This document shows positions 27,743 through 62,387 of a stretch of 64,000 nt of DNA, piece by piece. Position 1 is the stretch's first letter. Every line of letters begins with the position of its first letter. The position numbers and the translations under genes were made by a program. The notes under the pieces are model-generated. The model had not been told where the DNA came from. It searched no databases and saw only the letters and a list, made by a program, of their open reading frames with translations. This DNA is from an uncultured Pelagibacteraceae bacterium (lineage in GTDB: Bacteria; Pseudomonadota; Alphaproteobacteria; Pelagibacterales; Pelagibacteraceae): the NCBI GenBank assembly GCA_902599665.1, contig CACKGK010000001.1, forward strand, positions 62,001-126,000. Reading direction: 5' to 3'.

Positions 27743-27773
27743 AAAAGGCCCCTTTATAGGGGCCTTTTTTTTT
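27743..27773 (+). terminator. Intrinsic terminator of the porin gene
   Basis: A perfect inverted repeat AAAAGGCCCC (27743-27752) and GGGGCCTTTT (27759-27768), loop of six bases, followed by a T run to 27773, 22 bases after the porin stop. It is one of only two strong hairpin-plus-T-run terminators I can see in the window. Confidence 0.93.
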
Positions 27774-28299
27774 ACTTAAAAAACGAGATACCAGCAACAC
27801 CAGCTGATTTTGTAAGATTAATTAATCCAAAATTATCTTTTGATATACCACCAAGGGCCACAATTTCTTTGTATGAGAGTTTTGATATTAAATTAAATTT
27901 ATTTATTCCTAAAAAGTTATTATTATTTTTAAAGATTGACGATATAAAAATTTTATCGACATTTTGCTTCTCTTTAATTCTAATCTCTTTTAAGTTATGT
28001 GCTGATCCTAGTAATATGAAATTTTTTTTAAATTTATAACTAAGATGAGAAAAATTTTTATTGAAAGAAGGGAGATATGCACCATCTAAGTCTAATTTAA
28101 TTGATAATTTTACATTATTAGATAGGAGAAATTTAAGTTTTTTTTTTCTACAATAATTTTTTAAAAAAAGAATTTCACCAATTCTGTAATTTTTTTTATA
28201 ATTTCGGTATATTATTGTTGTATTTAAGTCTTGTTTATCAATATTACTTTTTTTAAATTCTTCTATAAAGTAATATTTTTTAATAAATTTATAATGCAT
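27772..28299 (-). CDS. Thiamine phosphate synthase / TenI-like TIM-barrel protein
   Basis: A 175-residue protein of the ThiE/TenI family, which couples HMP-pyrophosphate and thiazole phosphate (ThiE) or aromatises the thiazole (TenI). Family landmarks are GAYLPSF, LLGSAHNLKEI and EIVALGGISKDN; phosphate-loop glycine is kept. It is shorter and more diverged than authentic ThiE (about 210), so a TenI-like or moonlighting role is possible. I choose ATG 28299 (MHYKFIKKYYFI); ATG 28311 is an alternative. The start codon overlaps that of divergent yggS within ATGCAT. SAR11 bacteria depend on an external thiamine precursor, which makes a salvage role plausible. Confidence 0.68.
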   Translation of the reverse strand: MHYKFIKKYYFIEEFKKSNIDKQDLNTTIIYRNYKKNYRIGEILFLKNYCRKKKLKFLLSNNVKLSIKLDLDGAYLPSFNKNFSHLSYKFKKNFILLGSAHNLKEIRIKEKQNVDKIFISSIFKNNNNFLGINKFNLISKLSYKEIVALGGISKDNFGLINLTKSAGVAGISFFK

Positions 28300-47450: not shown

Positions 47451-48518
47451 ATGAAAAAAAGACAAAATAATAGCAATCTTAATTTTTTTAAAACATTTTT
47501 AACAAGTTTGATAATCATATTTGTATTTTCAATCTTACCAAACACAGTAAATTTTATAAAAAATAATTTAAAACCGAATGAAGTTGTAATTAATTCCTCT
47601 AAACAAAATTTCGATAAAATTCTAGAAAAGCAGAGAAAAAATAATAAAGAAATTGAAGAAAAAATAAAAGATAGATTTTCTTGGAATATTTTTGAAGATA
47701 TTGACGTTTTTGAAAAGGACGAAAAGGATGAAAATCCTCAAAGATTAAGTGCCTCAACAATTGAAGAGTTGTTTAAAGATAATGGATATAATCTTGATAT
47801 TGTTAAAAAAACTAAATTAGTTAATGCAGGCAATCAATTAACAAAGCTACCTAAAGAGCTTAAAAATATTGAAAGTCCAAAAAAAAGAAAAAAACTATTC
47901 ATTAAAATTGTTTTACCATTAATTATTGAGGAAAATCTTAAAATAAGATTTGATCGAAAGAAACTTTTTAAAATTTTAAATAAAAATAATACCTCATTAA
48001 GAGATAAGGCATGGCTTGATCTTAAATTTAAGCAATATGGAGTAAAAAATAATGATTTAGCAAAACTAAAAATTAGGATGGATGAAATTCCAGTTTCACT
48101 AGCAATTGCACAAGCAGCTAAAGAAACTGGATGGGGAAGTTCGCGGTTTGCTCAAGAGGGTAATGCATTATTTGGACAGTGGACATGGTCTGGTGATGGT
48201 ATCAAACCTTTAAATTTAGAAAAAAATAAAAAACATAAAGTTGCAAAATTTAAAATTTTGAAAGCTTCAGTTAGAGCATATCAAAGAAATTTAAATACAC
48301 ATCCTAGTTATAAAGAATTTAGAATTGAGCGAGCGATTCAAAGAGATAATGATAAAAAATTAGACAGTTTAAAATTAGTAAAATTTCTTGAAAAATACGC
48401 AGAAACAGGAAAAGAATATACAGAAGTTCTTAAAAAAATTATTAATCAGAATTCTTTGACTGATTTTGATGATGTGGACATTTTACCAACAAGTTTGAAA
48501 ATGAAAAATTTAATTTAG
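47451..48518 (+). CDS. Bax-like glucosaminidase, membrane-anchored
   Basis: A 355-residue protein with an N-terminal helix (about residues 13-38, FFKTFLTSLIIIFVFSILP) acting as signal anchor, a charged linker, and a C-terminal glucosaminidase domain (about 205-310) with IPVSLAIAQAAKETGWGSSR and ALFGQWTW. The Glu in KETGWG is the catalytic acid. This is the Bax/mannosyl-glycoprotein endo-beta-N-acetylglucosaminidase family, peptidoglycan hydrolases. I chose ATG 47451; a GTG at 47436 is possible. It is convergent with the polysaccharide deacetylase gene, overlapping by 9 bases. Confidence 0.85.
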   Translation: MKKRQNNSNLNFFKTFLTSLIIIFVFSILPNTVNFIKNNLKPNEVVINSSKQNFDKILEKQRKNNKEIEEKIKDRFSWNIFEDIDVFEKDEKDENPQRLSASTIEELFKDNGYNLDIVKKTKLVNAGNQLTKLPKELKNIESPKKRKKLFIKIVLPLIIEENLKIRFDRKKLFKILNKNNTSLRDKAWLDLKFKQYGVKNNDLAKLKIRMDEIPVSLAIAQAAKETGWGSSRFAQEGNALFGQWTWSGDGIKPLNLEKNKKHKVAKFKILKASVRAYQRNLNTHPSYKEFRIERAIQRDNDKKLDSLKLVKFLEKYAETGKEYTEVLKKIINQNSLTDFDDVDILPTSLKMKNLI

Positions 48519-55815: not shown

Positions 55816-55872
55816 ATATTGTTGATAAACAATAAAAAATAACTATATTTCAAGTACATTGTTGAAATTCGC

Positions 55873-55898
55873 AAATGGGCCCAGGCCCATTTTTTTTT
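55873..55898 (+). terminator. Terminator or attenuator hairpin between metK and nusA
   Basis: AAATGGGCC (55873-55881) and GGCCCATTT (55884-55892) form a perfect stem with a very small loop, running into a T run that ends at 55898. It ends 13 bases before the nusA ATG, so it can terminate metK transcripts or act as an attenuator in the leader of the nusA operon. Confidence 0.85.
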
Positions 55899-57475: not shown

Positions 57476-59692
57476 ATGGAGAAAAAAAAATTAAAGTTAT
57501 CAGTATCAGGAAACTCAAAAAAAACATTTAGTAGTATAGAACAAGCTAAATCAAAATCTAAGAACACAGTTGTTATAGAAAAAAAAACATCAAAGTTTTC
57601 TGGAAAAACACAATTCTCCAGACAAAATAGTAGTAATTTTAAAACCAGCACCATTATTCCTTCAAAATCGAGTAATTTATCTCGACCTTCTGCGCAACCT
57701 TCCTCAGATTTTGAAAAAAGAAAATTAGCTGAGCAAAGAGCTACTAGAAGACTAAAAGGTGAAACACCATATAAAGAAAATAAATCCAATAAAATTGGTG
57801 GAAAAAGAAGAGAATTAAAATTAACTATTTCAAGAGCTTTGAATGATGAACACGCTGAAATAAAGTCAAGAAGTTTAGCATCTTTAAAAAGAGCTAAACA
57901 AAAAGAAAATAGAAGTTTAAATCAAAACGAAAAGGAAGATAATTTTAAGCCAATTAGAAGGGAAGTGAATCTTCCAGAATTGATAACAATTAGAGAGCTT
58001 GCAAATAGAATGGCTGAACAGTCTAGTAGTATTATAAAACATCTTCTTGGTATGGGTGTAACAGTTACTATTAATCATACTATAGATGCAGATACGGCTG
58101 AATATTTAGTCAAAGAATTTGGTCACAATCCAATTAGAGAAAAGAAAGCAGAGGAAATAATTGAAAAAATTAAAGAGGTAAAATCAGATAATCTAAAAAA
58201 TAGAGCTCCAATAGTTACGGTTATGGGTCATGTTGACCATGGTAAAACTTCTGTTCTGGATGTTTTAAGAGAAGCAAATGTAGTATCAGGGGAATTTGGA
58301 GGTATCACGCAACACATCGGAGCATATCAAATTAATTACCAAAATAATAGTATTACTTTCATAGATACACCGGGACATGCGGCCTTTACAGAGATGAGAG
58401 CTAGAGGTTCAAAATTAACAGACATAGTTGTATTGGTTGTTGCAGCAGATGATGGAGTTAAACCTCAAACCATTGAGTCAATTAAACATGCGAAGGCTGC
58501 AAAAGTACCAATAGTTGTAGCAATAAACAAATGTGATTTACCAGAAGCAGATCCACAAAAAATAAAAAATCAACTCTTAGAGTACGAATTAGTTGCTGAA
58601 GAACTTTCGGGTGATACTTTGATGGTGGAAATTTCTACTAAAACAAAGAAAAACTTAAATAAACTAGTAGAGTCTATTATTTTACAATCAGAATTATTGG
58701 ATTTAAAAACAGACTTTGAAACAAGTGCTAAAGGAATAGTTTTAGAGTCAAAAATAGATATTGGAAGAGGATCTGTAGCCAATATTATTGTTACTGTAGG
58801 TACTTTGAAAAAAGGAGACTATTTCGTTAGTGGATTAAAATGGGGAAAAATAAGGGCAATAATTAATGATCGTGGTAAAAATATTGAAATTGCAGAGCCA
58901 GCTACTCCGATTGAAATAATTGGTATTAATGGTGCAGCAAAATCTGGAGATGACTTTATAGTTTTGCCAAATGAGAAAGAAGCCAAATCATTATGTCAAG
59001 CTAGAGTGCAACAGTCTAAAGATGATAAAATACCACTTAATTTTGTTACTCAAGACTCTGCTTTTCAAAATTCAGTTTCAGAGGAGTTAAATATTATTAT
59101 AAAGTCAGACGTGCATGGTACATCTGAGGCAATTAAAAATGCAATAGATCAAATTAAACATGACGAAGTAAAACCAAAAATACTCCTTTCTGATATAGGA
59201 ATGGTAACAGAGACTGATGTAACTTTGGCAAAGGCTTCACAGGCTGTAATAATAGCATTCAATGTAAAACCTAGTAAGGAGGCCAAAAAGAGAGCTGAAC
59301 AAGAAAAAATTTCAATTTCCTACTTCAATATAATTTATGAGGTTTTAGATTTTATAAAAGGTAAAATGGCTGGATTACTGTCCCCAGATGTAGAGGAAAA
59401 AATAATTGGTAGTGCCGAAATACTTGAAATATTTAAAGTATCGAAGGTTGGTAAAGTTGCAGGCTCAAAAGTAGTTGAGGGAGAAATAACACAAAACTCT
59501 AGTGCAAGGGTCATCAGGGATGGGACTATAATATTTAATGGAAAAATTGGTTCAATATTTAGAGAGAAAGACCAAACTAAACAAGTTTCTGCAGGATTAG
59601 AATGTGGAATTACATTAAAAGATTTCGCTGATTTTAAAAAAAAAGATATTATAGAAGTTTATAATTCAACAGTTATCGAGAGAACAATTTAA
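57476..59692 (+). CDS. infB: Translation initiation factor IF-2
   Basis: GTPase that brings initiator tRNA to the 30S subunit. N-terminal ~160 residues are basic and low complexity; then the IF2_N helix bundle ([19 protein letters not shown]), the G domain with [14 protein letters not shown] (G1), DTPGHAAF (G3) and AINKCD (G4), and the C-terminal domains II-IV. 738 residues. The ylxR gene normally between nusA and infB is absent, and the N-terminus is short for an alphaproteobacterium. It is directly followed by rbfA. Confidence 0.96.
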
Positions 59693-60037
59693 ATGAAAAA
59701 TTTAGGCAAACCAATTACTCAACGTCAACTTCGGGTTGGAGAAATGATAAAGCAAGCTCTAGGAACATTATTTGTAAGAGATGAGGCAAAAATTCATAAT
59801 TTATCTACAAGAGAAATTACAGTTACGGAAGTTAGAATGTCTCAAGATTTAAAAACTGCTAAAGTATTTGTAATGCCCCTAGGAGGAAAAAATTCAGAGG
59901 AAATTATAGAAAAACTAAAAATATCTTCTTTTATAATCAGAAAAGTTTTATCAAAAAAAATTATTATGAAATTTCTACCAAAACTTTTTTTGTCAAAGAT
60001 GATTCTTTTGATTATGCAGAAAAAATTGAAAATTTAA
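59693..60037 (+). CDS. rbfA: Ribosome-binding factor A, apparently frameshifted near the C-terminus
   Basis: 30S maturation factor with a KH fold. Residues 1-98 are normal: ITQRQLRVGEMIKQAL at the start, EITVTEVRMSQDLKTAKVFV, and IRKVLSKKIIMKFLPKL near the end of the KH domain. At 59985-59991 there is a run of seven T; after it this frame reads LSKMILLIMQKKLKI and stops at 60037. With one extra T the reading becomes FVKDDSFDYAEKIENLIK and ends at 60057, exactly the expected RbfA C-terminus. So the gene is frameshifted by a single base in a homopolymer: sequencing error, recent mutation, or slippage that restores the frame. The true product would be about 121 residues. Confidence 0.88.
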   Translation: MKNLGKPITQRQLRVGEMIKQALGTLFVRDEAKIHNLSTREITVTEVRMSQDLKTAKVFVMPLGGKNSEEIIEKLKISSFIIRKVLSKKIIMKFLPKLFLSKMILLIMQKKLKI

Positions 60038-60065
60038 TTAAACAAACAAATAAATAAGGAAAATA

Positions 60066-60314
60066 ATGAAAGAAAAAATAAAAGAACTTCGAATCCATGA
60101 TAAAGACACTGGATCTTCAGAAGTTCAGATTGCTCAACTAACTGGAAAAATTGAGAGCTTATCTAAACACATAAAGCAATCGAAGAAGGATAAACACTCT
60201 TCTGTTGGTCTTTTAAGAGCAGTAAATAGAAGAAAAAAATTATTAGATTATTTAAAAAAAAATAATATTGAGTCTTACAAAGCAGTATTAACAAAATTAA
60301 ATTTAAGGAAATAA
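60066..60314 (+). CDS. rpsO: 30S ribosomal protein S15
   Basis: Primary 16S-binding protein of the platform. The core DTGSSEVQIAQLTGKI and HSSVGLLRAVNRRKKLLDYLKK is typical. At 82 residues it is about seven shorter at the N-terminus than the usual 89, lacking the S-I-T-A-E-R-K segment; upstream in-frame sequence offers no better start. It follows rbfA with a gap of 8 bases from the restored rbfA stop at 60057, and truB, normally between them, is missing. pnp starts on the next base after its stop, as in most proteobacteria. Confidence 0.94.
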   Translation: MKEKIKELRIHDKDTGSSEVQIAQLTGKIESLSKHIKQSKKDKHSSVGLLRAVNRRKKLLDYLKKNNIESYKAVLTKLNLRK

Positions 60315-62387
60315 ATGTTCAAAGTAGTAAAAAAAGAAATAGAGATAAGTGGGAAAAAAATTAGTTTAGAGACAGGAAAAATAGCAAGACAAGCAGATGG
60401 AGCTATTATAGCTCAATGTGGTGAGACTGTTGTTTTAGCAACAGTGGTTGGTGCAAAAAAAGTTAATCCAGACATGGATTACTTTCCTTTGTCAGTAAAT
60501 TATCAAGAAAAGTATTATGCAGCTGGTAAAATTCCAGGTGGTTATTTTAAAAGAGAGGCAAGGCCTACAGAAAATGAAACTTTAATATCAAGATTAATTG
60601 ATAGACCTATCAGACCTTTGTTTCCTGATGAATTTAAAAATGAAGTTCAGCTGTTACCGACTGTAATATCTTATGATAAAGAGAACGAGCCTGATATTTT
60701 ATCAATAATTGCCTCTTCAGCTGCATTAGCTATATCAGGTATGCCTTTTATGGGTCCTGTAGGAGCTTCTAGAGTTGGCTTTATTGAAGGAAAGTACGTC
60801 CTTAACCCATCTAAAAAAGAATTAGAAAATTCAAAGTTAGATTTAGTGGTTGCAGGAACTAAAGATGCAGTATTAATGGTTGAGTCAGAAGCAAATGGTT
60901 TAACAGAGGAAGAAATGTTAAATGCTGTAAAATTCGGACATGAGGGTTTCGTTCCTGTCATAGAAATGATTGAAGATCTTGCGAAAGAATGTAGAAAACC
61001 TGAATGGACTGTCGAGAAGAAAGATCTTTCAGAGATAAAAAAGAAATTAGAGGAAGAATTTACCGAAGATTTGAAAAAAGCATTTTCTACCAGAGATAAA
61101 CAAGATAGATCAAATCAAATTTCAGAAATAACCGAAAAAGCAAAAAAGCTTTATGAGGAAAATGAGGATTATACAGATCTAGATGTGAATTCTCAACTTA
61201 AGAGTTTAGAAAAATCTATTGTAAGAACTGATATCTTAAAAAACAAAAATCGTATTGATGGACGAGGCCTAGCAGATGTAAGACCAATCATGTGTGAGGT
61301 GGGCATATTGCCTAGAGTTCATGGTTCTGCTTTATTTACAAGGGGTGAAACTCAAGCAATTGTTACAACTACTTTGGGTACATCAGATGATGAACAAAGA
61401 ATTGAGAGTTTAGATGGGCTTCAAAAAGAAAGATTCATGCTTCATTATAATTTTCCACCATTTTCAGTAGGTGAAACTGGTAGAATTGGAACAGGTAGAA
61501 GAGAGATTGGTCATGGTAAGTTAGCATGGAGAGCAATTAACTCATCACTTCCATCAAAAGAAAGTTTCCCATATACGTTTAGAATTGTATCAGAAATAAC
61601 TGAGTCAAATGGTTCATCCTCAATGGCAACTGTTTGTGGAACTTCACTTGCTCTTATGGATGCAGGAGTTCCTATTAAAGAACCTGTAGCTGGAATTGCA
61701 ATGGGTTTAATTAAAGAAGGCGATGATTTTACAGTCTTATCAGATATTCTTGGCGATGAAGACCATTTAGGTGATATGGATTTCAAAGTTGCTGGCACTA
61801 AGGATGGCATCACATCCTTACAAATGGATATTAAGATTACTGGAATTACATTTGAGATCATGGAGCAGGCTTTAAATCAAGCTAAAGATGGTAGAATTCA
61901 TATCTTAGGTGAAATGAATAAAGCTCTTTCTAAATCAAGAGATAATGTTGGTAAACACACACCAAAAATGGAAAAAATCACAGTTGATAAAAAAGATATC
62001 GCAGCAGTAATTGGTAAGGGTGGTGCAACAATAAGAGAAATAGTTGAAAAATCTGGAGCAAAAGTTGATGTTAATGATGAGGGTGAAGTAACAGTAGCAG
62101 CACCAGATGAAGAGTCTAGAAATAAAGCAATGCAAATGATTAAAGATATTACCGCTAAAGCTGAATTAAATAAGATTTATAACGGTAAAGTTATGAAAAT
62201 TATGGAATTTGGTGCTTTTGTAAATTTCTTAGGAAAACAAGATGGATTAGTTCATATTTCAGAACTTGCAGACAAAAGAGTTGCCAAAGTTACTGACGTA
62301 GTCAAAGAAGGTGACGAAGTTAAAGTAAAAGTTATTGGATTTGATCGAGGAAAAGTAAAACTATCTATTAAGCAAGCGGCTATATAG
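60315..62387 (+). CDS. pnp: Polyribonucleotide nucleotidyltransferase (PNPase)
   Basis: Phosphorolytic 3'-5' exoribonuclease, part of the RNA degradation machinery. Two RNase PH domains (the first from residue 1, including [18 protein letters not shown], the second from about 310, with [23 protein letters not shown] shown in part) are followed by a KH domain ([15 protein letters not shown]) and S1 ([21 protein letters not shown] in part). The 690 residues are complete. It starts on the base after rpsO and ends 3 bases from the convergent msrB. Confidence 0.97.

Follow-up and report, generated by a model that had tools for sequence, protein, structure and literature searches.

A frame break in a seven-T run of rbfA in a Pelagibacteraceae genome, probably a private contraction of an eight-T tract

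Does an rbfA gene that leaves its reading frame within a run of seven T reflect a sequencing or assembly error, a very recent mutation, or slippage that makes the full-length protein? An earlier note on this DNA had placed the three explanations side by side. The window, that is, the whole stretch of 64,000 nucleotides analyzed in this study, corresponds to positions 62,001 to 126,000 of contig CACKGK010000001.1 (assembly GCA_902599665.1) from an uncultured Pelagibacteraceae bacterium. Comparison of the site with its homologues suggests, at a probability of about 0.92, a T8-to-T7 contraction that is private to this genome and involves no dedicated recoding.

The rbfA locus and its reading frame

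The gene order on the + strand of the window is infB-rbfA-rpsO-pnp, and the relevant features are as follows.

57476-59692, + strand: infB (translation initiation factor IF-2), intact, directly upstream of rbfA; PF00009, PF11987 and PF04760
59693-60037, + strand: rbfA open reading frame as read, 114 aa, in the proper frame only to about residue 99-100; PF02033, E 2.4e-17
59985-59991, + strand: run of seven T (T7) in which the frame breaks; all relatives have T8 or an interrupted run that stays in frame
59992-60057, + strand: C-terminus of RbfA in the next frame, VKDDSFDYAEKIENLIKQTNK, with the stop TAA at 60055-60057; invariant in relatives
60066-60314, + strand: rpsO (ribosomal protein S15), intact, directly downstream of rbfA; PF00312, E 1.7e-29

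The product of the rbfA reading frame matches the RBFA profile (PF02033) at 63.6 bits, above the curated cut-off of 34.7. The match extends over residues 11-98 and, because of the frame break, covers only positions 1-87 of the 105 in the profile. The run at 59985-59991 contains exactly seven T in the sequence of the window, and all four close reference genomes place the break at position 59985, bearing out the earlier claim that RbfA leaves its frame in a seven-T run. As read, the open reading frame ends in ...MKFLPKLFLSKMILLIMQKKLKI followed by a stop codon. When one T is added, the gene reads KLFFVKDDSFDYAEKIENLIKQTNK and then TAA at 60055-60057, with eight bases between the restored stop and the ATG of rpsO (60066); with one extra base, the downstream DNA encodes FVKDDSFDYAEKIENLIKQTNK. 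The block D-x-S-F-x-Y-A-E-K of the genus is absent from the frame of the gene itself and is found in the next frame only. This next-frame tail is not a chance reading, since it is the most conserved block of RbfA in relatives and since the four references break at the same position. The claim that the right C-terminus is intact in the next frame, with its stop ending at 60057 and eight bases to rpsO, was confirmed as well.

In the predicted structures, the frame break falls within the third strand (E97-102) or at its end, and the models of intact RbfA copies have a helix at residues 105-119. In the model of the frameshifted protein, the core is similar up to β3 and only residues 106-114 fall below a pLDDT of 50, although both models derive from shallow alignments, and in the frameshifted form the homologous rows may bias the model towards the strand. 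From these models, it is possible that the frameshifted RbfA is partly functional.

The operon itself also differs from the usual arrangement. TruB_N (tRNA pseudouridine-55 synthase) had no match in this genome or in 24 further genomes of the genus, and the genomes without a match include a one-contig genome of the genus rated 100% complete. TruB_N was found in 14 of the 16 sister-family genomes, and it adjoins rbfA in those checked by coordinates. TruB looks to have been lost in the genus at exactly the rbfA-rpsO junction (60038-60065 of the window), or a very divergent copy may be present. In addition, RimP_N was found in none of 41 Pelagibacterales genomes, compared with 10 of 14 control genomes, and the usual place of RimP before nusA is empty (the metK-nusA gap, 55816-55896 of the window). 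Without RimP and TruB, the operon is unusually reduced.

The site in relatives and the constraint on the tail

RbfA was compared in a protein-match set consisting of the genome of the window and 100 relatives, mostly members of its genus, with a sister family supplying the others. In this set, nearly every genome of the genus with a match encodes a full-length, stop-free RbfA, and the proteins of the nearest relatives are full-length at 121 aa and 81-94% identical. Among the genomes of the genus, 323 out of 399 have an RbfA match, which is split in the genome of the window only. Six weak or partial matches in the genus were rechecked as possible further frameshifted copies, and all six were rejected, five being fragments at contig ends and one a divergent open copy.

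At the DNA level, the site is readable in 95 distinct rbfA sequences of Pelagibacterales, the segment being measured between conserved Lys codons. The segment is 12 nt long and in frame in 94 of the 94 other distinct sequences, and 11 nt long in the genome of the window. T8 is present in 38 of these 94 sequences, and the remainder have interrupted or shorter runs. No frameshift common to relatives was found, either with the degenerate T7 pattern, which occurs in one of 399 genus genomes (that of the window), or among the other distinct sequences (0/94). The 12-nt segments in all 94 others, together with the single occurrence of the T7 pattern, indicate that T8 is a common state of the clade and most likely ancestral for this lineage, and that T7 is, on the sequences compared, private to the genome of the window. 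The ancestral site in the clade would have read CTT TTT TTT GTN. These comparisons are between species. The nearest genome is about 86% identical in DNA over the locus and the nearest genomes compared are about 84-86% identical over 3.3 kb; a viral collection contained no same-species sequences.

In the original frame, the 20 codons past the break show no amino-acid change and 0-4 synonymous changes relative to each of 13 relatives. Moreover, among 22 intact proteins no block of RbfA is more conserved than this tail, with K102, D103, S105, F106 and Y108-Q118 invariant. The lack of nonsynonymous differences alongside 0-4 synonymous ones suggests that the tail was kept coding until very recently, and it would thus have been under coding constraint until just before sampling, or be constrained still. 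These data also bear on whether the shorter C-terminus might be the normal RbfA variant of the lineage. The reading frame runs for 114 aa without a stop and the core is predicted to fold similarly, but the tail in the original frame differs from relatives only synonymously, and none of the homologues in the genomes searched has such an end. The earlier note had named homologues with the same shorter C-terminus as evidence that would count against a frameshift, and the search for them returned none. A normal short variant is therefore exceedingly improbable.

Origin of the missing T

In the preferred reading, a private T8-to-T7 contraction, a polymerase would have slipped on the T8 tract and lost one T. 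The slip would have occurred either very recently, in a cell apparently without MutSL, or during DNA amplification, sequencing or assembly. The one-base deletion would shift the frame, so that the conserved C-terminal helix is replaced by an unrelated tail of 14 residues. Of the three explanations offered earlier, the comparison with relatives supports error and very recent mutation as a pair, without separating them, and gives no support to slippage as an evolved mechanism.

A technical origin would mean that the cell itself carries T8, one T having gone missing during whole-genome amplification, sequencing or assembly. The lesion is private to one draft assembly, which consists of 41 contigs and is about 87% complete. 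In the named collection, most of its close relatives are genomes of single cells (AG- and SAG- isolates) from uncultured Pelagibacteraceae (SAR11), a type of genome that usually derives from amplified DNA. Furthermore, the rest of rbfA is undamaged and the genus shows no variation in the C-terminal block, making a standing broken copy unlikely. Against a technical origin, about 394 coding A/T runs of at least 8 are present in the sampled stretches of this genome and no second lesion was found in them, indicating no general weakness of the assembly at homopolymers. In our rough judgement, a technical loss has slightly better than an even chance of being the cause.

The frequency of such lesions was surveyed at the DNA level by frame offset in sampled stretches, in which the coding sequence of this genome covered by at least one relative amounts to about 288 kb. 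Because the survey relied on BLAST, lesions close to the ends of genes may have escaped it; within this scope, the break in rbfA is the only internal one that was both supported by several references and upheld on inspection. Several candidates with a single reference resemble alignment ambiguities and were inspected in part. No equivalent lesion was found in about 786 kb of coding sequence of relatives, and the difference (1 in 288 kb versus 0 in 786 kb) shows no excess (Fisher p = 0.27). One slip per several hundred long runs is thus unremarkable, by error or by mutation alike, and the fact that the rbfA lesion was picked for standing out favours rare errors.

An initial tblastn survey for frameshifts gave mostly noise, produced by shadow ORFs on the antisense strand and by stop-to-stop ORFs extended upstream, and rbfA was missed by direct tblastn comparison because its tail is short. 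A frameshift at window position 47470 from this survey was rejected, as the region spans two convergent genes. In the frame-offset survey, window position 27772 was rejected as a frame break; in this region (about 27760-27790, - strand) a gene ends just before a GGGGCC-type terminator, and the copy in relatives reads into the terminator. Another candidate of that survey, L169:2188 on contig C2 of the same genome, was rejected because it precedes a small intact ORF on the - strand (L169:1951-2290), MKRMHRVLSSFSRGSKNAKLNQLMFRNLKTVETNANGTSGYVIKSGKNSGETLAHIKKETKKI, and falls in its 5' leader. The interspecies conservation of this leader nearly equals that of the gene, and the leader includes GACCGATATCGCATCGGTT, which is able to form a hairpin.

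Long runs in the coding DNA of the window are strongly strand-asymmetric, with 94 sense-strand A runs of at least 8 versus 6 T runs of at least 8.

The other branch of the preferred reading is a genuine and very recent T8-to-T7 mutation, a deleterious variant caught before its removal by selection. Neither MutS_I nor the MutL family DNA_mis_repair gave a family match in any of 41 genomes (this genome, 24 of the genus and 16 of the sister family), whereas 11 of 14 control genomes have matches to both. Missing MutSL repair leads to higher indel rates at homopolymers. The lack of mutS and mutL has been reported for SAR11 subclades Ic and IIa.A (PMC12374537), and homopolymer indel rates climb steeply with run length (PMC3812077). 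With neither MutS nor MutL found in this genome or its 40 relatives, a genuine indel is plausible; many relatives are in the T8 state, and the frameshifted model keeps the core to β3, so that some function may remain. However, the block that would be lost is the most conserved part of RbfA, no relative has the change, and deletion of rbfA in other bacteria causes slow growth and unprocessed 16S rRNA (PMC9032327). We regard a genuine mutation only tentatively as the source, at rather less than even odds by rough judgement. If real, the lesion would leave RbfA without its conserved C-terminal block, perhaps with a little full-length protein from chance slippage, and presumably at a functional cost.

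Slippage, recoding and known systems

It may also be proposed that slippage of RNA polymerase, or a -1 shift by the ribosome, on T7 yields full-length RbfA as the working product. The run reaches the length at which bacterial RNA polymerase slips, the minimum reported for the E. coli enzyme being seven T (PMC6260861). In the 0 frame the site reads CTT TTT TTG, with the slippery heptamer T TTT TTG, similar to the U UUU UUA site of HIV type, in phase, and the tail would be recovered exactly by a -1 shift or by one inserted U. In E. coli, about 0.75% of transcripts gain an insertion by RNA polymerase at T7 runs, and out-of-frame GFP is rescued to about 5% at T7 and about 10% at T8 (PMC6260861); endosymbionts correct 12-50% of transcripts at long poly(A) (PMC5009743). 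The heptamer, however, arises automatically on the loss of any T from CTT TTT TTT G and is therefore no sign of design or selection. Neither a stimulatory downstream structure nor a near Shine-Dalgarno-like element was found at the site: the downstream RNA is unstructured (z = +0.98, and z = +1.81 over 191 nt), and the nearest AGGAGG lies about 100 nt upstream of the run. In addition, none of the relatives has an out-of-frame T7, all staying in frame through the site, and in E. coli U_UUU_UUA shifts less readily than A_AAA_AAG (PMC5009743).

Recoding that makes full-length RbfA the working product is accordingly very unlikely, and still less is it to be expected that the lineage truly has T7 and obtains functional full-length RbfA through slippage of RNA polymerase or the ribosome. 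With the lesion unique, the relatives in frame and no frameshift stimulator at hand, the earlier option that slippage makes full RbfA as an evolved mechanism is not supported. By analogy with E. coli, incidental slippage on the run would recover a few per cent of RbfA at best.

Taken alone, the rbfA lesion is ordinary and matters little. It is a caution for annotation, in that the loss of one base from a homopolymer in a lone draft genome is no ground for annotating a truncated RbfA or recoding. If T7 were real and common, it would show that slippage can rescue a conserved gene outside endosymbionts, here in a group in which MutSL is not detectable. Such rescue, if true, would concern a broadly conserved ribosome-assembly gene in a free-living bacterium apparently without mismatch repair.

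Among known systems, programmed -1 frameshifting, as at A_AAA_AAG in E. coli dnaX and U_UUU_UUA in HIV, likewise involves a slippery-looking heptamer in phase, whereas the rbfA site lacks conservation, a stimulatory structure and an upstream Shine-Dalgarno sequence, and its homologues use no shift. The slippage-rescued frameshifts of Buchnera and Blochmannia (reviewed in PMC5009743) also combine an AT-rich reduced genome, the gain or loss of one base within an A/T run of a conserved gene, and a gene that is otherwise intact in the next frame. They differ in having long poly(A) tracts and measured corrected transcripts (12-50%), compared with T7 in one assembly only, from a SAR11-type genus. 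The analogy with endosymbionts drawn earlier is loose, since the genome is not that of an endosymbiont but belongs to the GTDB genus that contains the SAR11 single-cell genomes. The private indel or sequencing error in a homopolymer of a draft genome is the system from which no difference was found, and the rbfA lesion shares with it a single genome, a single run, a single base and intact relatives.
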